DNA from: a virus
DNA: 21,256 nucleotides
Virus record (IMG/VR): IMGVR_UViG_3300009786_000111
Coordinates: 1-21,256 of that record
Reading direction: 5' to 3' (one strand)
Both the position numbers and the translations under genes were made by a program. Each line of letters starts with the position of its first letter. The first letter of the stretch is position 1. Of this stretch, positions 2,372-21,097 are shown in pieces. The notes beneath the pieces were generated by a model that searched no databases, was not told the origin of the DNA, and was given only the letters and a program-made list of their open reading frames with translations.

Positions 2372-3496
2372 ATGAAACATCTACCTTATGGCGGGTCAGC
2401 CGAACACCGGACAATCGGGTGCAATGGTTGGCTCAAGAAATCAGAAAATCTCCCGCGAAGACCCCCCGGTAACGCCGCCATCGAAGGCTCCATGCACCAT
2501 GAGGTGCAAGAGCGTTGCCAGCGTGACGGGGTTGAGCCTGAACAGTGTGTCGGGTTCGTATATAAAGAGCCGGGTTACGAAGACACCATGACCCGTGAGT
2601 TCGCGGAAGACGATCTTGACCTGTCCCACATAGCCCTCAACGCGACGAACGTCTTGCTGGACCAACTGGACATTGACGAAATGGAGCTTGAGCCATTCGT
2701 TGAGTATGTGCCGGGTAGCCAAGGCGGGTCCATCGACCTTTTGGGTCTGTCGGTCAGCCGTGAGTGTCTCTTGATAGCCGACTACAAATTCGGAACCGTT
2801 AAAGTCTCCCCCGTGGAAAGCCCGAACTTGGGGTTGTACGGTATCAGCGCACGAAAAGACCCCAAGACCGCCGATATGTTCAAGAAGGTCAAGAAGGTGG
2901 TGTTCGCCATCATCCAACCAAGGGTCAAGGGTGTGGTCACAACGTGGGAGACGGACCTGGAGTGGCTGAACGCTTTCGAGAAGAAGCACCAAGCCGCTGT
3001 TAAAGGTACGGCCATCACCCCTGGTTCCTGGTGTAAGTACTGCCCAGCCGAACCGTTCTGCCCTGAGAAGCGTTTAAACATCGTCGCGGCGAACCTGTTA
3101 GGTGCGCGTGAACAGGACGAGTTGAACGCCGCCGCCGAAATGGTGGTCGAGGTCGAAAACTGGTGTAAATCCATCAAGGAAGAACTATTCCTTCAGATGG
3201 TGCGCGGTGTCCCTGTGCCGGGGTGGAAAATTGTCGAAAAGCGATGCACCCGCAAATGGGTGGACGAAGACAGCGCGGCGAAGGGTATCAAGTTACCCAA
3301 GAAGGATATGTTTAAGACCACCATGCTGACGCCAGCCGCTATGGAGAAGGTGGTCAAAAAGAAAAAGGTCAAGATTGACCTTGATGAGTTCATTATCTCC
3401 GTAAGCCCCGGCACTACGATAGCCACTGAGGATGACAGCCGCGAGGCTATTATCGCCAGCGACATCCAGGGTGAACTAAAGGAAATGATGAAGTAG
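2372..3496 (+). CDS. Cas4/RecB-like PD-(D/E)XK nuclease, DUF2800 family
   Basis: The 374-residue product has the features of the DUF2800 phage nuclease group: an N-terminal GNAAIEGSMHHEV segment (about residues 33-44), GGSIDLLG with Asp at about 122, and LLIADYKFG with the D-x-K pair at about 137 and 139, which together form a PD-(D/E)XK active site. A WCKYC...FC cluster (Cys 221, 224, 230) may bind iron-sulfur or zinc as in Cas4/AddB nucleases. Such genes usually precede an ssDNA-binding-like protein and a family A polymerase in phage replication cassettes, exactly as here. The expected role is DNA end processing in replication or recombination. ATG at 2372 is preceded by an AGGA-type site. 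Confidence 0.8.
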   Translation: MKHLPYGGSAEHRTIGCNGWLKKSENLPRRPPGNAAIEGSMHHEVQERCQRDGVEPEQCVGFVYKEPGYEDTMTREFAEDDLDLSHIALNATNVLLDQLDIDEMELEPFVEYVPGSQGGSIDLLGLSVSRECLLIADYKFGTVKVSPVESPNLGLYGISARKDPKTADMFKKVKKVVFAIIQPRVKGVVTTWETDLEWLNAFEKKHQAAVKGTAITPGSWCKYCPAEPFCPEKRLNIVAANLLGAREQDELNAAAEMVVEVENWCKSIKEELFLQMVRGVPVPGWKIVEKRCTRKWVDEDSAAKGIKLPKKDMFKTTMLTPAAMEKVVKKKKVKIDLDEFIISVSPGTTIATEDDSREAIIASDIQGELKEMMK

Positions 3497-4280: not shown

Positions 4281-6239
4281 ATGCTCTACTTAGACCTTGA
4301 AACCAGAAGTGACGTTGACCTGATCTTTCACGGGCTTCGCCGCTATGCGAAAGACCCCTCGACGGAGGTCATCTGCATGGCCTATGCGTTTGACGATGAG
4401 GACATCAAATTCTGGTGGGCTTCCGAAAATTTCCCGTCTCGCGTAAATGAACATTTCAAGAACGTCGGTTTGGTCACCGCGCACAACGCATCTTTTGAAA
4501 AGCATATTTTCGATTTAGTTATAAACCGAACGCACGATATTGAGTCGCCCGCTAACGAACAATGGCGCTGTAGCATGGCAATGGGCCTCACGAACGGTTT
4601 TGCGGGCGGTCTGGACGCCCTGGCTGTCGGCTTGGGGCTTACCTACCGAAAACACGCAGAGGGCGCACGGCTCATTAGAGAGTACTGCGCGTCGGGTCAC
4701 CTGAAGACGTTTAAACCCGGTGACGCGGAGAAAATGAAGCAATACAACATTGACGATGTCGAGGTCATGCGGGCGGCGGTCAAATGTTTACGCCCACTGA
4801 CTGATGAGGAATGGGAAGAGTACCACATCAACGCCATCATCAATGACCGTGGTCTACCCATCGACACGGCGTTCTGCAATGCGGCGCTGACCTACACCCG
4901 CGAGGTCGCGGACGATGCCAACGAACAGATCAGCATCCTGACCGGCGGTAAGATGACCAAGGCAACCCAGCGTAATGCGCGGGACGCTTGGTTGTTCCCC
5001 AAGCTGACGCCGCACCAGATGGGTTTGCTTGAGGTCTATAAAAAAGGTAAAAAGAAAATCAGTCTTGACCACGACCACAGGCACTATCTCTTACAATGTG
5101 AGGACTTAGACCATGACGCCAGAAGATTACTTGAATACATAGACAACGCGGGTTCTTCCGCTCTCAAAAAGTTCGCTGTTGCAGCGCACCAACACGTTGC
5201 CGGGAGGGTCCACAATACCTTCCTTTTCAATGGTGCAGGGCGTACCGGGCGGTTTTCTGGTAAAGGTCTTCAACCCCATAACATCCGCCGTGATGTCTTC
5301 GACAACGATCAGGCCGAAACCCTTATTGCTGACATCCTCGCCGGTTACGAAATAGACAAACCCGCCGACACGATGGCGCGTCTACTCCGCGCCATGATCT
5401 CGCATGAAACAGGGCTGTTTTGGGTGGATTGGAAAAGTGTGGAGGGGCGCATAGCCCCGTGGTTATCGAATCACCCGTGGGGTGAGGACAAGCTGGCGTT
5501 GTTTAAACAGGATAAGGACATCTATGTCGTAACCGCCGCCGATATGTTCAACGTCAACGAAAGTGATGTCGATAGTGACTTCCGGCAGAGCGGCAAGATC
5601 GCGGAACTATCCCTTCAATTTGGCGGGAGCCACAACGCTTTAATCGGCATGGCTAAGAATTTCGGCATCACCTTTGAGGAAAATGATGCCCGCGACATCG
5701 TAATCAAGTGGCGCAGAACTAACCCTTGGGCCGAACAGATATGGACCGAATACGATAAGGCTATCACCGCCGCCGTGCTGACGCCGGGTGTGGATTTTCC
5801 GGTGGGTCGGGTGGTCTACCACTCGGACGGTAAGAACTTCCTCTGGTGTAGGCTTCCGTCCGAACGTCTGTTGTCGTACCCCAAGCCAAAGTTTGAAGCC
5901 TACATGACACCGTGGGATGAAGAACGCGTTGGCGTCACGTTCCAGAGCCATTTCAAGCCCGCCGCTGGTGAGCCGCCTATCCGTATTCATGCGCGGGGCG
6001 CTCTACTGTTCCAGAACACGGTCCAGGCGGTTGCCGCCGACTGTCTACGGGAAGCCATCTGTCGGACCCATGATGAGGGACTCGACATCGTCGGCCATGT
6101 CCACGATGAGATCATTGGCCTTGGTCCGCGTGAAGACGGAGAGCGTTTAAACAACATCATGCTTGAACAACCCTGGTGGGCCGATGGTCTGCCTATTGCA
6201 ACAGGTGGCGTGAAAAGTGGAACCCGTTATGGCAAGTGA
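4281..6239 (+). CDS. Family A DNA polymerase with 3'-5' exonuclease
   Basis: The 652-residue protein begins with a DnaQ-like exonuclease: LDLETRS with Asp5 and Glu7, HNASFE at about 68-73, and YNIDDVEV with Tyr155 and Asp159. The polymerase half has RTGRFSGKGLQPHNIRR (about 321-337), motif A WVDWKSVEGR (Asp383, Glu388, Arg390), motif B FRQSGKIAELSLQFGG (Arg435, Lys439, Phe447) and motif C HVHDE (Asp609, Glu610). These match the roughly 650-residue phage polymerases found next to DUF2800 and VRR-NUC genes. It copies the phage genome. Motif B has Phe where many relatives have Tyr. The C-terminal RLNNIMLEQ is encoded by the 27-bp segment also found at 406-432. The gene overlaps the VRR-NUC gene by 11 bp. 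Confidence 0.93.
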   Translation: MLYLDLETRSDVDLIFHGLRRYAKDPSTEVICMAYAFDDEDIKFWWASENFPSRVNEHFKNVGLVTAHNASFEKHIFDLVINRTHDIESPANEQWRCSMAMGLTNGFAGGLDALAVGLGLTYRKHAEGARLIREYCASGHLKTFKPGDAEKMKQYNIDDVEVMRAAVKCLRPLTDEEWEEYHINAIINDRGLPIDTAFCNAALTYTREVADDANEQISILTGGKMTKATQRNARDAWLFPKLTPHQMGLLEVYKKGKKKISLDHDHRHYLLQCEDLDHDARRLLEYIDNAGSSALKKFAVAAHQHVAGRVHNTFLFNGAGRTGRFSGKGLQPHNIRRDVFDNDQAETLIADILAGYEIDKPADTMARLLRAMISHETGLFWVDWKSVEGRIAPWLSNHPWGEDKLALFKQDKDIYVVTAADMFNVNESDVDSDFRQSGKIAELSLQFGGSHNALIGMAKNFGITFEENDARDIVIKWRRTNPWAEQIWTEYDKAITAAVLTPGVDFPVGRVVYHSDGKNFLWCRLPSERLLSYPKPKFEAYMTPWDEERVGVTFQSHFKPAAGEPPIRIHARGALLFQNTVQAVAADCLREAICRTHDEGLDIVGHVHDEIIGLGPREDGERLNNIMLEQPWWADGLPIATGGVKSGTRYGK

Positions 6240-6871: not shown

Positions 6872-8099
6872 ACAAGTCACAGCCGTTGACCGCCTGTTTG
6901 AGTATGACCACACCATCCTTGTCGCCGGGACGGGTGTCGGCAAGACGGTGATCGCCCTGACCGCCATCTGGGAGATGATAGAGGAAAAGTATCTTCACAA
7001 GGTCATCGTTGCCGCGCCCGCCAAGGTCATCGAAAAGATGATCTGGCTGGAAGAGATGTGTAAGTGGCATCACCTACGCGGCATGAAGGCCATCCAGCTT
7101 GAGGGCAACAGCCAGCAACGCATCAAGACGCTCATGGCGAACGAGGCCGACATCGTCCTGGTCAGCTTAAACAACCTTGATTGGCTGTTGAAACAAGACC
7201 ATGAGTGCGACGGCATCGTCATCGATGAACTCTCCAAGGCAGCGGGCAAATGGACGAAAGGTTTGAAGTCTAAAAAACTCTGTGACAGATTAATTTGGAG
7301 ATGCGGTATGACAGCCACGCCCGTGTCCCAGAGCTATGAGAAAATATTTTCGATGGCCCGCATCATAGATTGCGGCAAAAGTTTAGGCACGAATAGGCAA
7401 GCCTATATCAACACCTACTTCGACAGCGACTACATGGGTTACAATCTAACGCTGAAAGGCTTCGCGGACGCGCAAATCATGTCAAAAGTGGCCTCTCTCG
7501 TCCACCTCGTTGTCGATGACAAGGCCAAGGTACTGCCACCTCTGCGTGAGAGCGTCATAAAATTCGATATGCCAGCGGAAACGCGGGAAATCTACAACGA
7601 CATGAAAAAGCACATGGTGGTCGAGGACCGTGAGGCCGCGAACCAAGCGGTCAAGTCGGGCGTCCTACGCCAGATCGCGTCTGGCTTCTATTATGGTGAC
7701 GCTGGACCGCCAACCTCGCTCGACACGGCCAGAGCCGACGCCGCGCTCTATTGGGCCAAGGGTTTGAAGGGTGAGCCGGGGATTATCTTCTATGAATTTG
7801 TCGAACAGCTTGTTCAGCTTGAGGAGTTGCCCGACAACATCATGCGGGCGCAGATACAGTCGATGTCACATGGCATCGACGGCCTTCAAAATACATACAA
7901 TTCGGTGTGTTTTCTGCAACCACCGTGGTCGAGGGACCAGCAAGAGCAAAGTATCGGCAGGGTCTGGCGGCAGGGGCAAAAAAAGCCCGTCACCGTCACT
8001 ACCCTGGTCTGTACCGATACGCTGGATGAACTGGTCGTGGCGAGGGTGGAAGACCGTGGCAAGTGGATGAAACTTTTTCGTAAGCATTTAGAGAATTGA
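6846..8099 (+). CDS. SNF2-type superfamily 2 helicase
   Basis: The 417-residue protein carries Walker A AGTGVGKT (residues 27-34), motif II IVIDEL (Asp127, Glu128), motif III-like GMTATPV (about 154-160) and motif VI QSIGRVWRQGQ (about 368-378, Arg372 and Arg375). This is the two-RecA-domain pattern of SNF2/DEXD-box proteins and matches the SNF2 helicases in phage cassettes with DUF2800, family A polymerase and VRR-NUC. It probably unwinds or remodels DNA at the fork. ATG at 6846 has an AAAGG site. The domain II region is compact, so the protein is shorter than chromatin-type SNF2 enzymes but usual for phages. Confidence 0.88.
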   Translation: MTSHSLTSEQVTAVDRLFEYDHTILVAGTGVGKTVIALTAIWEMIEEKYLHKVIVAAPAKVIEKMIWLEEMCKWHHLRGMKAIQLEGNSQQRIKTLMANEADIVLVSLNNLDWLLKQDHECDGIVIDELSKAAGKWTKGLKSKKLCDRLIWRCGMTATPVSQSYEKIFSMARIIDCGKSLGTNRQAYINTYFDSDYMGYNLTLKGFADAQIMSKVASLVHLVVDDKAKVLPPLRESVIKFDMPAETREIYNDMKKHMVVEDREAANQAVKSGVLRQIASGFYYGDAGPPTSLDTARADAALYWAKGLKGEPGIIFYEFVEQLVQLEELPDNIMRAQIQSMSHGIDGLQNTYNSVCFLQPPWSRDQQEQSIGRVWRQGQKKPVTVTTLVCTDTLDELVVARVEDRGKWMKLFRKHLEN

Positions 8100-8104
8100 C
8101 GCAA

Positions 8105-8117
8105 CACATAGTATGTG
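8105..8117. promoter_or_regulatory. 13-bp palindrome upstream of ParB-like gene
   Basis: CACATA-G-TATGTG is a perfect inverted repeat around one base, in the 53-bp gap between the helicase and the ParB-like gene. It is a candidate binding site for autoregulation or for the ParB-like protein itself. Confidence 0.45.
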
Positions 8118-8152
8118 GCAAGTTGAGATGTCACAACATAGGAGTTGACAAC

Positions 8153-9148
8153 ATGACTAAACTGCAAAACGTCCCAATGGACGCTATCGACGCCAACCCG
8201 TTCAGGCGGCTTGGTGACTATCCTTACGTTGAGCGTAAACTCGACGCACTGAAACGCTCCATCGAAGACGTTGGTCTTTGGGAGGGCGTCATTGCCCGTA
8301 AGAAAGGCAACCGTTACGAAATCGCCTTCGGACATCACCGTATGGAAGCCGCAAGACAAACGGGTTTGAAAGAAGTCTCCGTTGTTGTCCGCAAGCTGGA
8401 CGATGAACAGATGCTTCAATTCATGGGCCGTGAGAACCTTGAAGATTATAATGCCGACTTTGCCACCATGCTTGAGACATGGGAAGCCGCACTTAATTTC
8501 CCGGGCGCGGCCCGGGGTGACCTCAGTGTTGCGAAGTTATTGGGTTGGACAAACACCCATGAGCGCGACGGTGAACAGATGAGCGACACCGCGAGGGCTT
8601 GCTCTGCCGTGAATAGCCTTATCGTCAATAACCATGTGAAGCGCGAAGACTTTCATAATCTCTCAGTGAAGACGGCTAAAATTATAAGTGAGCGGGCTAA
8701 AGCCAACATTACCCGTGTCGTAAAGACCGCTAAGAAGAACAAACGGCCTGTCGAGGAAGTCGAGGAAGCTAAGAAGCAAATCGGCAAGGCAGTCACCAAG
8801 ACGGCAAAAGAAAGCCGCCGGGGTGAAATCGCGCAGAAGGACTTGCGGGGTCAGGTCGATGTAAATGCTTATCGCTTTGCCAAGCAGAGTAAAAAGCAAT
8901 CCCCACTATTTAAACAGTTTGGCGATCAACTGAAGAACAGCATCACTAAAATGCTGAACGGTGACAGCACCTCGACGAAATTGGCGGAAGTTACCGCCGC
9001 TCTTGGGGACATCACGCTGGAAGAAGATCATGCGGTGGTCCGCGCCATCAAGTTTGAATTGGGTGAACTGTCTGGCCGCGCCGACAAATGGGTTATTACT
9101 ATGGACCCGAAGAAGGTGGTCAACTTGAAGGAGATTTCCAATGAGTAA
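8153..9148 (+). CDS. ParB-like nuclease/DNA-binding protein
   Basis: ATG at 8153 has a GGAG site eight bases upstream; a TTG at 8096 overlapping the helicase stop is less likely. The 331-residue protein has a ParB/Srx-type N-terminal domain: VPMDAIDANPFRRLGDYP, then LKRSIEDVGLWEGVIARKK, the signature FGHHRMEAARQTG (matching GxxR-x-x-A) and MGRENLEDYNADF. The C-terminal part is rich in Lys and Glu (VVKTAKKNKRPVEEVEEAKK) and likely helical. Phage ParB-like proteins act as nucleases, transcription regulators or DNA-clamping factors, and the exact role here is open. It overlaps the next gene by 8 bp (ATGAGTAA). Because the window has a highly repeated palindrome, a sequence-specific ParB relative is of interest as a possible reader. 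Confidence 0.8.
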   Translation: MTKLQNVPMDAIDANPFRRLGDYPYVERKLDALKRSIEDVGLWEGVIARKKGNRYEIAFGHHRMEAARQTGLKEVSVVVRKLDDEQMLQFMGRENLEDYNADFATMLETWEAALNFPGAARGDLSVAKLLGWTNTHERDGEQMSDTARACSAVNSLIVNNHVKREDFHNLSVKTAKIISERAKANITRVVKTAKKNKRPVEEVEEAKKQIGKAVTKTAKESRRGEIAQKDLRGQVDVNAYRFAKQSKKQSPLFKQFGDQLKNSITKMLNGDSTSTKLAEVTAALGDITLEEDHAVVRAIKFELGELSGRADKWVITMDPKKVVNLKEISNE

Positions 9149-9623
9149 GTTTGTACGCCGTGAGACGGTGCGTAAATGCGCCATCCATCAGAGCATAATG
9201 GAACGGGCGTCAGAAGACCTTGAACACGCCGGGGCGTTTAACAAAGAAGACATCCTTGAAACCCTCAGCCTCAAGGTAATGGAAGATAGCGTCCGGTGGG
9301 ACTACATCCGCGATTTTCTGCAAGATGACCAAGGGTGTGAGTTGGTCCCGGTTGCCGCCAGTTACTTCAAGCGTCATAAACGCGATGAAGAACTGACCAG
9401 CCCTGAACGCTTCATTGCGTCTGGTTACGGAAAAAAGACGGCGGGGTTTGTGTCTGTATCGCTTGAGAACGATCACCTTGTAGTGTGTCGGGTCAAGCAA
9501 CGTCAGAAGATGGCGAATGGTGCAGGTAAGAAGTTCCGCGAATACGCTGAAGCCGTACAAAGTCGGCGGGTTTCATTAGGTGCGCCTGAAACACCTCTGC
9601 AAGTCGTAGACGCAAACAAGTAA
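9141..9623 (+). CDS. Hypothetical protein coupled to the ParB-like gene
   Basis: ATG at 9141 sits in an ATGAGTAA overlap with the ParB-like gene, so the two are probably translated together. The 160-residue product is soluble and charged, starting MSKFVRRETVRKCAIHQSIM, with a mainly helical first half and a second half containing SGYGKKTAGFVSVSLENDHL and VCRVKQRQKMANGAGKKF. The first half (EDILETLSLKVMEDSVRWDYIRDFL) could bind a partner protein. I recognise no family. It is the last gene of the first rightward replication unit, since a terminator follows at once. Confidence 0.65.
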   Translation: MSKFVRRETVRKCAIHQSIMERASEDLEHAGAFNKEDILETLSLKVMEDSVRWDYIRDFLQDDQGCELVPVAASYFKRHKRDEELTSPERFIASGYGKKTAGFVSVSLENDHLVVCRVKQRQKMANGAGKKFREYAEAVQSRRVSLGAPETPLQVVDANK

Positions 9624-9672: not shown

Positions 9673-11961
9673 ATGCCAGTACACGCCAAAGAATTTCTCG
9701 ACACCATTTTCGATGACCTGAACGATGATGAATACGTCTGTGTGTCCCGTGCCATTGAAAAGAAGGATGGCACGGGCGTCTGGTTCAAGTCGTTTAAACG
9801 TGACGCCCGTCAGTTCCGAAAGTGGAACCCTGAAACCCAGGCCCAGGCGTGGTATTTTTGTGTTTCAACAGTCAGTGGAGAGTTAAATGAAAAAGCTACA
9901 ATGGTTGGTCGCGGGCGAAGACATCTCAGAAGATATTATTGTCTCGTCCTGGATGACATTGGAACAAAAGGAACTCCACCACCTGTTGAGCCGTCTTGGA
10001 AGATTGAGACTAGCCCTGGAAACTGGCAGTGGGGATATTTCCTTGACCCTGGCTCAGATTGGGGGCGCTATGAGGCGCTTGCCGAATTTTGCCATCGACA
10101 AGGATGGGGTGATGCGGGCGCAGGGGGAAGTTATCGCCTCATGCGTCTGCCAGGATCAGCCAACCTCAAGCCAGGACGGCAAGGTTTCCGTTCTGTGGTC
10201 AACCACTGGGAAAAAGATGTTTGGTCCCTGGATGAACTTGCTGACGCCCTAGGCTGTAATTTTTCAGAAATCGAGGTGAAGGATGTCGATGTTAAAGAAA
10301 AGACGGGCGGTGCAGCGGCGATGGACGGCATTGACCCTCTGCTGGATTGGCTCGTTGACGGCGGTCATGTGGTACGCGACACCGGGTTGGAGTGGGTTGA
10401 TGTTATTTGTCCTTGGGCTGACAGCCACACCACTGGTGAGAACATTGCTGGATACTCACCGCTAGGCCGTGGGGTAGGAAAATTCGTCCAGACCAGGGCG
10501 TTCAACTGTATGCACGAACATTGCGTTGACCGCAAGCTGACCAAGTTCCGCGAATGGGCGTCGAAGCTGGGCGCACCTACTGTGTCGGGCTATGACCCGT
10601 TGCCGTGGCTTCAAGATAAGTTCGTCTATGTGTCCACCGGGCAGATGGTCTATGACCTACACCAGCGCCCACTAGGCGGCGTCTGGAAGTGGTCGTTGGC
10701 AGACTTCACCAAGGACCACCCCGGCAAGATCACACCGCCGGGGCGTGACAACCCCGTCACCATTGCCACCGCCTTTGTCGAGCATGAGAAGACCCGCAAG
10801 GTCGTGGACACTTGCTATACGCCTGTGTCGCGTGAGGCTGACACCGGCATTGTCGAGCGCCTTGAGCAAAAGTTCGTCAACACCTATGTCCCGCCGAATT
10901 GGGATGAGACGGGTGAGACGCCGGAAGTTTTCATCGAACACATGGAGTATGTCATCCCCGACGAATTTGAACGGGAAACCTTCTACAACTGGCTGGCGCA
11001 TAAAATACAGAACCCCGACAAGCGTTCTTACGCCGTCATCATGATCGCGGAAGGCGCGTATGGTACGGGCCGGTCATGGATAGGTCGGCTCATTGACCAG
11101 ATGCTTCAGGGTCATTGTAACAGCGCCACGTTGTTGCAGTTAATCGGAAAGGGGACCAGCGCGGAGCAGAACTACAATTCGTGGATGGTCGAGTGCCAAT
11201 TTTTAATTTGCGAGGAAGCGAAAGACACGGCGTTGTCCCGCGAAGACTTCTGGCACGGCTACGACACGTTTAAACAGAACGTCGAGCCGGGTGATGCGGG
11301 CCGTCCTATCCGCATCAACGATAAATATGGCCGCATTTACCACGAGGTCGTCTATCACAACCCCCTGATCTTCACCAACCATGCCGATGCTATGGTCATT
11401 GAGGATGGTGACAGACGTATTTTCTGTGTCGAGAACCCGACAGAGCGCCGGGATTATCAATACTATGATCGTTTGACGGGTTCGCTCAAGACCCAGGAAC
11501 CTCGCCGGGTATACTGGTGGCTGATGCGCCGTGACCTGACCGGGTTTAAACACATCTACCCACCGATGACGCCGTCGAAGGCGCGGATGATTGAGGACAC
11601 CCGTGCGCCTAGTGACGCCATAGCCGAATGGATACGCGACAACCACGCGCCCGACATCGTCACCCGTGCCTCATTGAAGGTTGCCATCATCATGGCGGCG
11701 CGTGACCTGGACGATGAGAAAACAATGCGTGAGCCGGGTAATATCACCAAGATATTGTGGCGAAAATTGAAGTCTTTGAGGCCCGATGACACAAAAAACG
11801 GAGCGCGTTATATGGTCGATGGGAAGCAAACAGAGGTCCGCGCCATCCGAAATCAGACCAAGTGGGTCGATCAGGATGTTAGCCGCGACACCGAAATTGT
11901 TGTTAAGGAGTTGGGAAAGGCGATAATGCCGACGAATGTGGTGGATATTAGAGGAGCATAG
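9673..11961 (+). CDS. Primase-helicase (RepB-type primase plus DUF5906-like SF3 helicase)
   Basis: The 762-residue protein has an N-terminal primase-like region with VLDDIGTK (about 92-99), WKIETSPGNWQWGYFL (about 109-124) and SYRLMRLPGSANLK, the layout of RepB/AEP-type phage primases. A zinc-binding segment follows, with CPWADSH (Cys246, His252) and FNCMHEHC (Cys279, Cys284). The C-terminal half is an SF3-like helicase: Walker A EGAYGTGRSW (about 460-469), Walker B FLICEE (about 510-515), sensor LIFTNH and the arginine pair DRRIF (about 580-584). The usual Walker lysine is replaced by Arg467. Such proteins open the origin and prime synthesis. It has its own terminator upstream, and a repeat-rich AT-rich segment follows directly. 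ATG at 9673 has a GGGGG site. Confidence 0.88.
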   Translation: MPVHAKEFLDTIFDDLNDDEYVCVSRAIEKKDGTGVWFKSFKRDARQFRKWNPETQAQAWYFCVSTVSGELNEKATMVGRGRRHLRRYYCLVLDDIGTKGTPPPVEPSWKIETSPGNWQWGYFLDPGSDWGRYEALAEFCHRQGWGDAGAGGSYRLMRLPGSANLKPGRQGFRSVVNHWEKDVWSLDELADALGCNFSEIEVKDVDVKEKTGGAAAMDGIDPLLDWLVDGGHVVRDTGLEWVDVICPWADSHTTGENIAGYSPLGRGVGKFVQTRAFNCMHEHCVDRKLTKFREWASKLGAPTVSGYDPLPWLQDKFVYVSTGQMVYDLHQRPLGGVWKWSLADFTKDHPGKITPPGRDNPVTIATAFVEHEKTRKVVDTCYTPVSREADTGIVERLEQKFVNTYVPPNWDETGETPEVFIEHMEYVIPDEFERETFYNWLAHKIQNPDKRSYAVIMIAEGAYGTGRSWIGRLIDQMLQGHCNSATLLQLIGKGTSAEQNYNSWMVECQFLICEEAKDTALSREDFWHGYDTFKQNVEPGDAGRPIRINDKYGRIYHEVVYHNPLIFTNHADAMVIEDGDRRIFCVENPTERRDYQYYDRLTGSLKTQEPRRVYWWLMRRDLTGFKHIYPPMTPSKARMIEDTRAPSDAIAEWIRDNHAPDIVTRASLKVAIIMAARDLDDEKTMREPGNITKILWRKLKSLRPDDTKNGARYMVDGKQTEVRAIRNQTKWVDQDVSRDTEIVVKELGKAIMPTNVVDIRGA

Positions 11962-12166: not shown

Positions 12167-12202
12167 CCCGACACAGCGTTTAAACTGTGTCGGGCTATTT
12201 TT
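12167..12202. terminator. Bidirectional terminator with GTTTAAAC loop
   Basis: Arms CCCGACACAG (12167-12176) and CTGTGTCGGG (12185-12194) form a perfect 10-bp stem. The 8-nt loop and first closing base contain GTTTAAAC. CTATTTTT follows on the plus strand and a T-run also follows on the minus strand, so it can end the primase transcript and the leftward HTH transcript. Confidence 0.8.
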
Positions 12203-12249: not shown

Positions 12250-12438
12250 TCAGGATGGTATTTTCGGAATTTTTCTGTCGATCAGGATGTCGATCAGGAT
12301 GGCTAGCGCCAGCGGGACGGGCGTAAATCCGTTTTCGTATCTGATAATTTGGCGCGTGGAAATATCCAGAAAAGCGCCTATGGCATTTTGGGTTAGGCCA
12401 AGCGTCAAGCGCCGGGCTTTGAAGGTTTCCGGTGTCAT
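12250..12438 (-). CDS. Xre/Cro-type helix-turn-helix repressor-like protein
   Basis: Minus-strand ATG at 12438 is preceded by GATAGG. The 62-residue product is almost entirely an HTH_3-type domain: FKARRLTLGLTQNAIGAFLD, then ISTRQIIRYENGFTPVPLALA. The LTQ...A..L.IS.R.I.RYE.G pattern is that of Xre/Cro regulators. Its C-terminus (ILIDILIDRKIPKIPS) is encoded by the GTCGATCAGGATG repeats, so the protein tail and the repeat array share DNA. It could regulate the leftward block or bind the neighbouring repeats; both are inference. It lies downstream of the terminator at 12516-12551 and so probably has its own promoter in 12440-12515, where TATGTCA is repeated (12474 and 12492). Confidence 0.75.
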   Translation of the reverse strand: MTPETFKARRLTLGLTQNAIGAFLDISTRQIIRYENGFTPVPLALAILIDILIDRKIPKIPS

Positions 12439-13521: not shown

Positions 13522-13554
13522 AAAAGGCAGAGCGCGTTTAAACGCTCTGCCCTT
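13522..13554 (-). terminator. Terminator of the clamp-like gene, GTTTAAAC loop
   Basis: Arms GGCAGAGCG (13526-13534) and CGCTCTGCC (13543-13551) form a perfect 9-bp stem whose loop is almost exactly GTTTAAAC (13536-13543). On the minus strand TTTTG follows. It lies nine bases beyond the clamp-like stop codon. Confidence 0.75.
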
Positions 13555-14434: not shown

Positions 14435-14530
14435 TCACTCCCCTTTAAAAATAACTGCTAAGACTGCAATGCAAAGCATAACGGACAAACCGTTAACGGC
14501 TATCCAATCAAGAATATTGAGTGAGATCAT
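14435..14530 (-). CDS. 31-residue membrane peptide
   Basis: Minus-strand ATG at 14530 follows GAAAGGAAA and the stop TGA is at 14437-14435, directly before the next start. The peptide is MISLNILDWIAVNGLSVMLC followed by IAVLAVIFKGE, one continuous hydrophobic segment with an acidic residue near the start and a Lys/Glu end. It would span the membrane once. The clear ribosome binding site and stop/start proximity support translation. The role is unknown. Confidence 0.55.
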   Translation of the reverse strand: MISLNILDWIAVNGLSVMLCIAVLAVIFKGE

Positions 14531-15042: not shown

Positions 15043-15060
15043 GAAAAAAGTTTAAACGCT

Positions 15061-15484: not shown

Positions 15485-15517
15485 GCCAATGGGTTGGTTT
15501 TAGAAAAGGACAAAGCA

Positions 15518-15865
15518 TTGTCGCGTAAAAAAGGAACGCCTAACAAAATGACAGCGGCAATAAAGGACGCCGTTGAATTGTCATTCAGCAAGAAAAACAA
15601 GGGCGGTAAATATCTCGACAAGCTGGCTGACGATTTTCCCGCCGTCTATTGTGGTCTGATCGCAAAATGTATGCCGCAAGCGATTGCGGTTGACGTTCAA
15701 ATTCATGCCATAAACCTTGGCCTTGAAATGAAACGCGCCGCTGACACCCTAGCCCTGCTGACCCATCCACCCGACACACCGCCTCTCATAGATGTAACAC
15801 CCGACACAGTACAACCTGACACACCGTCACCTGTCACTGTGTCGGGTGATGCTGATGATGTTTAA
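15518..15865 (+). CDS. terS: Putative small terminase subunit-like protein
   Basis: TTG at 15518 has AAAAGGA seven bases upstream; an in-frame TTG at 15494 has no such site. The 115-residue protein begins MSRKKGTPNKMTAAIKDAVE, then LSFSKKNKGGKYLDKLADDF and PAVYCGLIAKCMPQAIAVDV. The '.rKKGtpNK.t..ik.a...' opening with 'yL..LA...Pa.y..LiaK.mP' is seen in small phage proteins encoded just before the large terminase and annotated as small terminase or TerS-like. TerS proteins recognise the packaging site and regulate TerL. The C-terminus has PDTP-type repeats (PPDTPPLIDVTPDTVQPDTP) encoded by the CACCCGACAC DNA repeats. The call rests on position and resemblance, not on a certain family match. 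Confidence 0.6.
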   Translation: MSRKKGTPNKMTAAIKDAVELSFSKKNKGGKYLDKLADDFPAVYCGLIAKCMPQAIAVDVQIHAINLGLEMKRAADTLALLTHPPDTPPLIDVTPDTVQPDTPSPVTVSGDADDV

Positions 15866-15973
15866 ACAACGCACCCGACACACCACATATTACAATAGGT
15901 TGCACACCCGGCATACCACAACTGTTAGTATTAAATCGGTTTTGAGATTATCGAAGGCGGGGTGTGCCGGGTG
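15768..15973. repeat. Cluster of seven CACCCGACACACC-type repeats, candidate pac/cos site
   Basis: Copies or variants start at 15768 (CACCCGACACACC), 15798 (CACCCGACACAGT), 15813 (AACCTGACACACC), 15872 (CACCCGACACACC) and 15905 (CACCCGGCATACC). Inverted copies are at 15836 (ACTGTGTCGGGTG) and 15961 (GGTGTGCCGGGTG). 15798-15810 and 15836-15848 are a perfect 13-bp inverted repeat with a 25-nt loop. The cluster covers the end of the TerS-like gene and the start of the 202-bp gap before the large terminase, a common place for the packaging initiation site. The stem of the terminator at 12167 uses the same sequence. Confidence 0.7.
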
Positions 15974-17600: not shown

Positions 17601-17640
17601 TGGTCCTCTCCCCGGACAAAACGGTCCTATACCGTTTAAA

Positions 17641-17669
17641 CTCCCCAGCCTTGCGCTGGGGAGTTTTTT
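17641..17669 (+). terminator. Rho-independent terminator after large terminase
   Basis: CTCCCCAGC and GCTGGGGAG pair over 9 bp around CTTGC, followed by TTTTTTC. GTTTAAAC (17634-17641) abuts the stem, and a second small hairpin (AAACGGT/ACCGTTT) lies just before it. Confidence 0.85.
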
Positions 17670-18319: not shown

Positions 18320-19932
18320 GTACCAAAGCCGCTGACATCATCAAACGCTATGAACAGTTGGAAAGCGAACGGGGAACGTGGGAAACACACTGGACGGAGA
18401 TAGCGGACAGGATTTTACCACGGTACTCTGATACCTTTTTCAAACCTACGTCTGAACAGACGAAGGGTGAGAAGCGCACCGAAAAGATGATCGACAGCAC
18501 GGGCGGCTTGGCCCTTGAGAGGTTTGCCGCCGCGATGGAGAGTATGTTGACACCGCGTACTCAGAAGTGGCACAGGCTGACGCCCGACCATGACGAGTTG
18601 GGGAAAGAGCGGGACGTTAAGTTGTGGTTTGAGCAAGCGACCAACGTCCTGTTTAAACAACGCTACGCATCGAAAGCCAACTACGCCAGCCAGCAACATG
18701 AAAGCTATATGGGCTTGGGCGCGTTCGGTACGTCCGTCATGTTCGTGGACAAGCACGACAAGGGCGGCTTGCGGTATGCCTCGACCAACATCAAAGAGAT
18801 TTTGTTTGAGTTGAACCACCAAGGTTTGCTCGACACCACCTATCGGAAATACTCACTGACCGCACGGCAGATGATGCAACGGGTCGAGTTGAAGCGGTGG
18901 GAAAGCGTACCTGACGAAGTCACGAAGGCGAACGAGAAGACGCCCGACAAACGCTTTGACATCATCCACTGTATTCGTCCACGCAAAGAAGTCGAACCAA
19001 ACCGGGTGGACGCCAGAGGCAAGGAGTTTGCGTCTTTCTATATCGCCGTCAACGGCCAGCACGTTTTGAGCGAAGGCGGCTACGACACGATGCCGTATCA
19101 GATTTCACGGTACGTCACTGGACCGGGTGAAAAATACGGGCGCTCTCCCGCCATGTTTGTTTTACCGTCCATAAAAGTTTTAAACGAGCAGAAGAAAACA
19201 ATGCTCACGCAGGGACACAGAGCGGTTGCGCCCGTTCTGTTATCGCATGATGACGGTATCCTTGATACCTTCAGCATGGCCCCCGGCAGTATGAACCCCG
19301 GCGGTGTTACCGCCGAAGGCCGCGCCCTTGTCCACGCCCTCCCCGTGGGCAACCTCGCGGCTGGGCAAGAGTTGATGGACATGGAGCGTCAAGTAATTAA
19401 CGATGGATTTTTAGTTAGCCTTTTTCAAATCCTCGTAGAGACGCCTCAGATGACGGCGACAGAAGTGTTGGAACGCGCCCGTGAGAAGGGTGCGTTGTTG
19501 TCTCCCACGATGGGACGCCAACAGTCTGAAAGCCTTGGCCCGATGATCGAACGTGAAGTTGACGTTCTTATGAAACAAAATATCTTACCCCCGATGCCCG
19601 AAGTCATGGTTGAGGCACAGGCCGAGTTTGAGATTGTCTATGACAGCCCCCTGTCCCGGTCCCAACGGGCAGAGGAAGCAAGCGGCTGGCTCCGCACGTT
19701 GGAAGCCGCCATTGCCTACGCGAACACCACGCAAGACCTGTCGGTCCTCGACCAGTTCGACAGCGATGTCATCTACCAGCAACTAGCGGAGATCAACGCG
19801 GTCCCGGCGTCTTGGATGCGTGATCCCGCCGCGATTCAACAACTACGCGAAGCCCGCGCACAACAACAACAAATGCAACAGATGGTCGATGCCGCGCCCG
19901 CCGCCGCTGGTGTAATGAAGGCGCTGAACTAA
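18316..19932 (+). CDS. Head-tail connector / portal protein, T7-like
   Basis: The 538-residue protein begins MSTKAADIIKRYEQLESERG, then TWETHWTEIADRILPRYSDTFF, the opening typical of podovirus head-tail connector proteins (Head-tail_con family), and is near the usual 520-560 length. Other family-like segments are RTEKMIDSTGGLALERFAAA (about residues 56-75), the GEKYGRSPAMFVLPSIKVLN stretch (about 270-290) and TPQMTATEVLERAREKGALL (about 380-400). The C-terminal part is rich in Gln (QLREARAQQQQMQQMVD). It forms the dodecameric ring at the capsid vertex through which DNA is packaged and ejected. ATG at 18316 overlaps the previous stop as ATGA, and the next gene starts as TAATG. Confidence 0.9.
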   Translation: MSTKAADIIKRYEQLESERGTWETHWTEIADRILPRYSDTFFKPTSEQTKGEKRTEKMIDSTGGLALERFAAAMESMLTPRTQKWHRLTPDHDELGKERDVKLWFEQATNVLFKQRYASKANYASQQHESYMGLGAFGTSVMFVDKHDKGGLRYASTNIKEILFELNHQGLLDTTYRKYSLTARQMMQRVELKRWESVPDEVTKANEKTPDKRFDIIHCIRPRKEVEPNRVDARGKEFASFYIAVNGQHVLSEGGYDTMPYQISRYVTGPGEKYGRSPAMFVLPSIKVLNEQKKTMLTQGHRAVAPVLLSHDDGILDTFSMAPGSMNPGGVTAEGRALVHALPVGNLAAGQELMDMERQVINDGFLVSLFQILVETPQMTATEVLERAREKGALLSPTMGRQQSESLGPMIEREVDVLMKQNILPPMPEVMVEAQAEFEIVYDSPLSRSQRAEEASGWLRTLEAAIAYANTTQDLSVLDQFDSDVIYQQLAEINAVPASWMRDPAAIQQLREARAQQQQMQQMVDAAPAAAGVMKALN

Positions 19933-20198
19933 TGGCGGTTATACAATTAGCGGAACAGGTGAAAAACTTTCTTGTCACCCGTGGACAAGCCTACCGTCAG
20001 ACGTTCAACGGAATTTATGGTGAGCGGGTCTTGATTGATCTGGCGCGGTTCTGTCGGGCGAATGAGAGTACGTTCGTACCTGATTCCCGCGCTGAAGGAA
20101 TTTTACAAGGACGCCGTGAGGTGTGGCTCCGTATCTCAAAACACCTCAACCTGTCTGAAGATCAGCTTCAGACGTACTTCAACCCACAAGGAGAGTAG
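19932..20198 (+). CDS. Bbp19-like phage protein
   Basis: The 88-residue product starts at ATG 19932, overlapping the portal stop (TAATG). It has RGQAYRQTFNGIYGERVLIDLA, then RFCRANESTFVPDSRAEGIL, then QGRREVWLRISKHLNLSEDQ. The 'Y...F...g..vl.DL.rFC.a..stf.pd.r..g...GrRevwLrI...l.l' pattern is that of the Bbp19 family of phage structural-region proteins. The function is not established; location between portal and scaffold points to head assembly. The family assignment is from memory. Confidence 0.7.
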   Translation: MAVIQLAEQVKNFLVTRGQAYRQTFNGIYGERVLIDLARFCRANESTFVPDSRAEGILQGRREVWLRISKHLNLSEDQLQTYFNPQGE

Positions 20199-20203
20199 AG
20201 ACA

Positions 20204-21097
20204 ATGGCCGAAGAAGCTGGGTCCGTGGAAGCGGGCAACCCAGGGGAAGCAAACGCGCCCTCTGGCGAGACAAGCGCAGACGTAAACGCGGTAGCGGGTT
20301 CGCCCCTAGCTACTGAAACAACGACAGGTTGGATTGAAGGGGTACAAGACCCCACGACGAAGGCTTGGGCTGAAGCAAAAGGATTACAAAACGGAAGTTT
20401 TGAAAATGTCCTTGGGAGTTACCACAACCTCGAAAAGATGGTCGGCGCAGACCGCGCCGGGCGCACGATTACTATGCTGGGTGATGATGCCACACCGGAA
20501 GAAAAAGCTGAGTTCTACACAAAGCTGGGGCGTCCGAAGGAAGCGGGGCAATACTCTGTCGCGTTGCCTGAAGGCGTCACCGATACCACACGCATTGATA
20601 TGATGCGTAACAAAGCGCACGAACTTGGTATCACGGATGCCCAGCTATCGGGTTTGGCTGAAGCCGACCAAGCGTACTTTGAAGCCGCTACGCAAGGGGC
20701 AGTAGATGACAAAGCCGTCTCTGCCGCTGATGCGGAGAAACAGTTGCGTACCGAATGGGGCGCGGCGTTCGACTTGAAGGTTGCGGGTATTGACGTTGCC
20801 GCTCACAAGTTAGGTATGTCGGACGAACAGTTGACGGGCTTGCGCGAAAGCATGGGTCCGGTGGAAGCCATGAAATTCGTGGACGGTTTAAACACTAAGA
20901 TTGGAGATCACAATTTCGAAGATGGCATCCCCGTCACACCGGGCCACAAGACGCCTGAACAAGCTAAAGCAGAATTAGCGGACCTGTCCATGAATAAGGA
21001 ATTTCAGGACGCTTGGCTCAATAAACAACACCCCGGTCACACGGCGGCGGTTGAGAAGAAAGCCGCCTTGGCTCGTCTCATGGCGGGTGTGGTGTAA
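20204..21097 (+). CDS. Capsid scaffold-like protein
   Basis: ATG at 20204 follows AAGGAGAG. The 297-residue protein has an acidic, Ala/Gly/Thr-rich N-terminus (MAEEAGSVEAGNPGEANAPS), then VQDPTTKAWAEAKGLQNGSF, then YHNLEKMVGADRAGRTITML with DDATPEEKAEFYTKLGRPKE, where the 'LGRP....Y' segment follows, and a long helical C-terminal half ending in AAVEKKAALARLMAGVV. This order matches podovirus scaffolding proteins that guide capsid assembly and are then released. It lies after the portal as expected, so the major capsid protein should follow beyond the window. Confidence 0.8.
   Translation: MAEEAGSVEAGNPGEANAPSGETSADVNAVAGSPLATETTTGWIEGVQDPTTKAWAEAKGLQNGSFENVLGSYHNLEKMVGADRAGRTITMLGDDATPEEKAEFYTKLGRPKEAGQYSVALPEGVTDTTRIDMMRNKAHELGITDAQLSGLAEADQAYFEAATQGAVDDKAVSAADAEKQLRTEWGAAFDLKVAGIDVAAHKLGMSDEQLTGLRESMGPVEAMKFVDGLNTKIGDHNFEDGIPVTPGHKTPEQAKAELADLSMNKEFQDAWLNKQHPGHTAAVEKKAALARLMAGVV

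Follow-up and report, generated by a model that had tools for sequence, protein, structure and literature searches.

Short sites repeated in many copies have been described for several kinds of genomes. The stoperators of cluster A mycobacteriophages are many dispersed, short and asymmetric sites which are bound by a helix-turn-helix repressor and belong to one phage group. HIP1, the highly iterated palindrome GCGATCGC of cyanobacteria, is a feature of the host genome, and the KorB/ParB operators of plasmids are dispersed palindromic operators on the element's own DNA. In Spartan/SprT-like proteases (PF10263), a zinc ribbon follows the HExxH zincin domain, and the described members are not known to require a sequence motif for their action on DNA-protein crosslinks. 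The antirestriction protein ArdC of plasmid R388 combines a DNA-binding domain with a Spartan/SprT-like metalloprotease domain, does not need its protease activity for antirestriction and binds single-stranded DNA non-specifically via its N-terminal domain (PMC7213743).

In the present study, the palindrome GTTTAAAC was analysed in a marine phage, represented by the entire IMG/VR record IMGVR_UViG_3300009786_000111 (positions 1-21,256; 21,256 bases, referred to as the window), and in further phages and plasmids. Like a stoperator, GTTTAAAC is one short site in many dispersed genome copies, but it is palindromic and common to unrelated phages and plasmids, and 11 of its 17 copies in the window are located within genes, whereas stoperator-like sites would be located mainly outside genes or at their ends. 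With HIP1 it shares the form of an 8-bp palindrome repeated through genomes, genes included; however, the sequence is a different one, and GTTTAAAC is a feature of the elements, alphaproteobacterial genomes being unenriched. As with the KorB/ParB operators, a palindrome is dispersed over the element's own DNA, but again the sequence differs and no gene of the ParB/KorB type tracks GTTTAAAC.

The SprT-like protein which is described below as travelling with GTTTAAAC shows the Spartan/SprT order of an HExxH zincin domain and a zinc ribbon, and its phage/plasmid branch differs from the known proteases by a KKQ[ST]TR arm and by the association with the palindrome. The protein resembles ArdC in being encoded by the element, and the dispensable protease of ArdC is paralleled by phages of this study without the protease part. 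It differs in that the putative DNA-binding part is the C-terminal zinc ribbon, which is tied to a specific double-strand palindrome; an N-terminal domain for single-stranded DNA binding, as in ArdC, was not found in the SprT-like protein, the zincin domain of which starts near the N-terminus. Searches of the openly licensed PMC literature found no earlier report on GTTTAAAC with phage, SprT with palindromes or HIP with phage, and the sole phage literature match to GTTTAAAC is an incidental promoter sequence. The use of the palindrome by this phage and by unrelated phages and plasmids with the SprT-like protein points to a DNA-marking system of mobile elements that has not been described so far; its novelty as a system is based on its anatomy and on its failure to fit the known systems, the function being putative.

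Palindrome copies and codon choice in the window

The window is a podovirus-like genome fragment with genes for a head-tail connector (PF12236), a family A DNA polymerase, a primase, a helicase and an exonuclease. It contains 17 copies of GTTTAAAC, whereas 100 dinucleotide-preserving shuffles gave 0.49 copies on average and at most 3. Restriction-site avoidance was rejected as an explanation for the distribution of the palindrome, since GTTTAAAC is about 35-fold over-represented.

Two of the copies within genes are located in the gene at 1384-1680 on the minus strand, one encoding KFKQ (1440-1447; conserved in L420, L422 and L423) and one in an SLN frame (1576-1583). A poorly conserved copy lies in the RLN frame of the exonuclease-like (DUF2800) gene (3072-3079). 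The DNA polymerase gene carries three, in TFKP (4709-4716; conserved to G003, G005 and G009), in LFKQ (5501-5508) and in an RLN frame (6145-6152), and the primase gene likewise three, in SFKR (9792-9799; conserved in L426 and G005), TFKQ (11268-11275; conserved in G009 and G010) and GFKH (11544-11551). The copy in LFKQ of the connector gene (18651-18658) is conserved in most aligned relatives including G009, and the following gene has a copy in a GLN frame (20886-20893).

Six of the 17 copies are located outside confident genes. Two of these lie in the loops of terminator-like hairpins, CCCGACACAG..CTGTGTCGGG at 12178-12185 and GGCAGAGCG..CGCTCTGCC at 13536-13543. The others are an intergenic copy directly after the first gene (407-414), the copy at 15050-15057, a copy in which the internal TAA is the stop codon of the gene at 15494-15865 (15860-15867), and a copy 3′ of the terminase gene which overlaps a terminator-like stem (17634-17641) and is conserved in L008, L011-L013, L015, G005 and G006. 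At 14443 in G009 the palindrome was likewise observed within a hairpin loop of this kind (CGTTTAAA or TGTTTAAA in these hairpins), and such loops are apparently a permissive place for a GTTTAAAC site.

An earlier note on this DNA had claimed that codon choice in the primase peptide WFKSFKR, with TTC AAG for the first Phe-Lys and TTT AAA for the second, is bent to create the palindrome at 9792-9799. This was borne out by the sequence, and the further sites which it named at 4709, 5501, 11268, 11544 and 18651 are all correct. The tabulation of codon choice against flanking bases, proposed in the same note, revealed the expected dependence: in the window Phe-Lys is encoded by TTT AAA in 8 of 8 cases where the neighbours permit a G before and a C after it and in 1 of 10 cases elsewhere, and Leu-Asn is encoded by TTA AAC in 5 of 5 cases after Arg, Ser, Cys or Gly as opposed to 1 of 14 elsewhere. 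Of the 8 Phe-Lys pairs with permissive neighbours, the one at 8909 (CTA TTT AAA CAG) is without the leading G and therefore yields no palindrome. When synonymous codons were shuffled within genes 1000 times, 0.82 coding copies of GTTTAAAC (maximum 4) were obtained on average, compared to the 11 observed. The same excess was found in G002, G005, G009 and four unrelated phages, and the related phages G007 and G015 gave no GTTTAAAC bias in the same codon and shuffle test. Hence, the phage is under DNA-level selection for GTTTAAAC, which is paid for in free codon choice. The suggestion of selection on DNA rather than protein is thus supported by codon context, synonymous shuffling, the conservation described below and the bias-free relatives, and the six copies outside confident genes and the conserved flanks show that it understated the case. 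The 18-bp form of the site, its sharing by unrelated phages and plasmids and its co-travel with an SprT-like gene are points beyond that note.

Site form, conservation and distribution

The flanks of the sites in the window show a purine at position -5 in 33 of 34 half-sites and a pyrimidine at position -1 in 25 of 34, so that the full site is an 18-bp palindrome, RNNNYGTTTAAACRNNNY. Outside of this motif the information content of the flanks is almost nil. Versions of GTTTAAAC with a single mismatch showed no enrichment, by which a degenerate binding site was ruled out; the 8-bp core is all-or-none. Across the genomes two forms of the site were distinguished: class II, to which the window belongs, has the purine at -5, and class I (YGTTTAAACR) lacks it. 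The nucleotide-level comparison with homologues, also suggested by the earlier note, showed that 43 of 76 aligned sites are intact in relatives, where 14.1 would be expected from other 8-mers; in G009, which is 67% identical, 5 of 6 sites are kept (0.3 expected).

Relatives of the window were gathered by similarity of the connector protein. The clade of the window is rich in GTTTAAAC, and so is G009 with 27 copies in 37.2 kb; G010 has few sites, and G007, G015 and G016 have none or nearly none. Among more distant relatives in bacterial genome assemblies GTTTAAAC was the top palindrome in 0 of 80. Other over-represented palindromes were observed in the relatives L068 and L054 (CCTCGAGG, 9 copies vs 0.5 expected; CGGCGCCG, 8 vs 1.1). 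When IMG/VR was scanned for pairs of extended sites separated by about 100 bases, most of the contigs retrieved were rich in GTTTAAAC, with up to 39 copies in 9.3 kb; as such a scan selects for sites, these densities are biased upward. Unrelated phages and plasmids also carry selected GTTTAAAC, as is seen in isolated elements: Dinoroseobacter phage R5C (49.9 kb read) and Pseudanabaena phage Pan1 each have an sprT-like gene and 10 copies (0.11 and 0.08 expected, respectively), and a plasmid of Magnetospira QH-2 has the gene and 18 copies (0.55 expected). The gene is also present in the Sphingobium plasmid pUT1 with 5 copies (0.06 expected), and counts for Sphingobium/Sphingomonas plasmids with the gene are 5 vs 0.06 and 3 vs 0.04 expected. 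In these Sphingobium/Sphingomonas plasmids the SprT-like gene (2174-2806 in L430, 3894-4535 in L432 and 35593-36222 in L433) adjoins genes for a ParA-type ATPase (parA) and a ribbon-helix-helix protein. Arthrobacter phage Reedo, Microbacterium phage Dismas, Bordetella phage FP1 and Pseudomonas phage Epa5 have the gene and no sites in the stretches read; the arm or the ribbon at the C-terminus is altered in FP1, Epa5 and Dismas.

Association of the palindrome with an SprT-like protein family

All proteins of 34 records were clustered in order to find families common to GTTTAAAC-rich phages, and the SprT-like protein proved to be the family with the widest occurrence, being present in 21 of the 34 records, including G005, G009 and 19 records chosen for their sites. 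It has a length of about 200 amino acids and consists of an HExxH domain, the basic arm KKQ[ST]TR and a C-terminal zinc ribbon. The family matches phrog_6361 and PF10263; with the latter, the members of L092 and L318 pass the cut-off of 25.6 bits (31.6 and 27.8 bits, respectively) and another member is just under it (23.8 bits). A confident AlphaFold model (pLDDT 92) comprises a zincin domain, a flexible arm and the ribbon, and a fold search of the PDB gave no match at E≤0.001.

For the reverse test, 79 loci were fetched by similarity to the SprT-like protein alone. GTTTAAAC ranked first of the 256 8-bp palindromes in 61 of these loci, with p<1e-3 in 58, and after merging of loci by shared nucleotide sequence it was on top in 17 of 26 groups compared to 0 of 80 control loci. 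The protein is rare among sequenced phages (169 of 50,697 records). In the connector set, L007, L017, L032, L042 and L043 carry sprT and all have sites; sprT was not detected in the site-poor G010. Several GC-rich phages with an sprT-like gene are free of sites, some despite a normal-looking arm. The site density is higher within 3 kb of sprT than farther away (1.75 vs 0.48 per kb). Overall, GTTTAAAC is strongly associated with the phrog_6361 protein family.

With regard to the part of the protein that may read the site, several class I phages, the most site-dense ones, have kept no more than the C-terminal ~70 residues of the protein, or have a protease domain that lacks HExxH. Stand-alone proteins of ~70-90 amino acids which represent only the SprT-like C-terminal zinc ribbon (phrog_34373-like) are encoded by very site-dense phages (G412, 5271-5495; G417, 20151-20366; G432, 1198-1470; G429, near 5782). 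Since some phages retain only the zinc-ribbon end, this end probably reads GTTTAAAC, and the loss of the protease domain in some phages speaks against an essential role of proteolysis. Furthermore, a purine at -5 was found in 85% of half-sites when K/R-K/R precedes Q in the arm and in 52% of the others. This correlation of arm and flank, with p=9e-8 at first, fell to 0.79 vs 0.61 with p=0.05 once similar proteins were merged and was therefore treated as suggestive; R5C and Pan1 do not follow it. Judged from these sequences, direct reading of the palindrome by the C-terminal part of the SprT-like protein is suggested.

With regard to the window genome itself, the explanation is weakest in that no sprT was found despite many sites. 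The window, its right extension G002 and L423 yielded no homologue of sprT or of the zinc ribbon; L423 matches the left end of the window with 97% identity and continues for another 5.7 kb to the left. The search left ~4-5 kb of the window phage uncovered, mostly virion genes as estimated from the gene order of G005. In sister phages sprT lies in the stretch from primase to terminase, and in L007/G005 and L017 it is located near the terminase gene. For the window phage, three possibilities are considered, namely a gene in the uncovered ~4-5 kb, a recent loss of the gene or its provision by another element.

Possible roles of the sites

In the reading that we consider probable, GTTTAAAC would be the core of a putative docking site, many copies of which are kept by mobile elements on their own DNA. 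The predicted docking partner is the element-encoded SprT-like zinc protein (phrog_6361), whose basic arm KKQ[ST]TR and C-terminal zinc ribbon would contact the palindrome, probably in dimeric form. The least certain part is the action of the protein once it is bound. By analogy to ArdC and Spartan, it may protect the incoming element DNA or clear it of host DNA-bound proteins such as restriction enzymes and silencers, a role that is proposed tentatively; its main rival, the regulation of genes across the element, is almost equally likely. Because ArdC is the closest functional precedent, protection or clearing is favoured, with regulation close behind. It is possible, if rather unlikely, that the entire chain holds, i.e. 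that the SprT-like protein, or in some phages only its zinc ribbon, is loaded on self-DNA via GTTTAAAC throughout the genomes and thereby removes or blocks bound host proteins.

In the case of regulation, the sites would serve as operators for a transcription regulator of the phage, either the SprT-like protein itself or a helix-turn-helix protein, similar to the mycobacteriophage stoperators, and this likewise has to be taken as a tentative reading. It is consistent with the ~3-8 fold over-representation of sites in intergenic regions of most genomes, with a small site peak 60-120 bp upstream of sprT, with sites just upstream of several small genes in G424 and with a site of E. coli phage ep3 that lies 20 bp upstream of its sprT-like gene. 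On the other hand, the majority of the copies in most other genomes, as in the window, lie inside genes, including late structural ones, where they are accommodated through synonymous choice, and the sites of R5C and Pan1 are spaced more evenly than random. Regular spacing was rejected as a general property, most other genomes showing clustered or random-looking sites. The even spacing in R5C and Pan1 and the wide spread of sites on the Magnetospira plasmid fit a genome-wide role, and the promoter-proximal sites fit regulation. Homologues of the helix-turn-helix protein of the window also occur in the site-free G007 and the site-poor G016, which speaks against such a protein as the regulator.

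A host property, such as a HIP1-like host-wide palindrome, a host methyltransferase or a host DNA-binding protein, would explain why sites are kept in the window phage without a visible sprT. The strong depletion of GANTC in the window (9 vs 81 expected) and in G015 (5 vs 138) suggests that the host has CcrM-type methylation and is probably an alphaproteobacterium. However, none of 386 alphaproteobacterial genomes had sites at phage-like density (maximum 12 copies of the extended motif per genome). In four genomes counted for the bare 8-mer GTTTAAAC at most 94 copies were found in ~2 Mb. As the same motif is moreover found across phages of very different GC content, including the Dinoroseobacter and Pseudanabaena isolates, a host origin is improbable. 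Still less probable is a centromere-like array bound by the ParB-like protein (PF02195) that the window encodes at 8096-9148 on the plus strand. The neighbourhood of plasmid sprT genes to parA and a ribbon-helix-helix gene would agree with it, but the ParB-like gene is absent from the site-bearing G003, G005 and G009 and is not among the families most widely common to site-rich phages; tested as a candidate reader, ParB was rejected as the common cause, which is largely refuted. Among the related records compared, this gene and the next one (9141-9623) occur only in the overlapping and identical G002. Unselected remnants of small mobile sequences or a mutation bias have the least probability of all. 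The ~20 bases downstream of the sites at 407-432 and 6145-6170, one intergenic and one in the polymerase gene, are nearly alike (AACATCATGCT-GAACAA), as such remnants would be, and may go back to a duplication. Against this stand the almost information-free flanks outside the 18-bp motif, the unenriched one-mismatch versions and the conservation of sites above background, which refutes this explanation for most sites.

The co-occurrence of a selected palindrome with one protein family opens a testable role for a widespread SprT-like gene whose family, phrog_6361, is without an assigned function, and suggests that mobile elements label their own DNA through its sequence. Should the mark be used for counter-defence, this would be a new kind of counter-defence; if it serves regulation, the regulator would have an unusually dense, genome-wide array of sites. 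In current annotations the gene appears as 'transcription elongation protein SprT' or 'SprT-like protease'.

Two further proteins of the window were rejected as readers of the palindrome. Homologues of the small protein encoded at 2150-2368 are also present in relatives without the motif. The same applies to the helix-turn-helix protein encoded at 12250-12438, the recognition helix of which does not track the motif. At the end of this small helix-turn-helix gene region, a 13-mer, GTCGATCAGGATG, is repeated about five times between 12205 and 12330.
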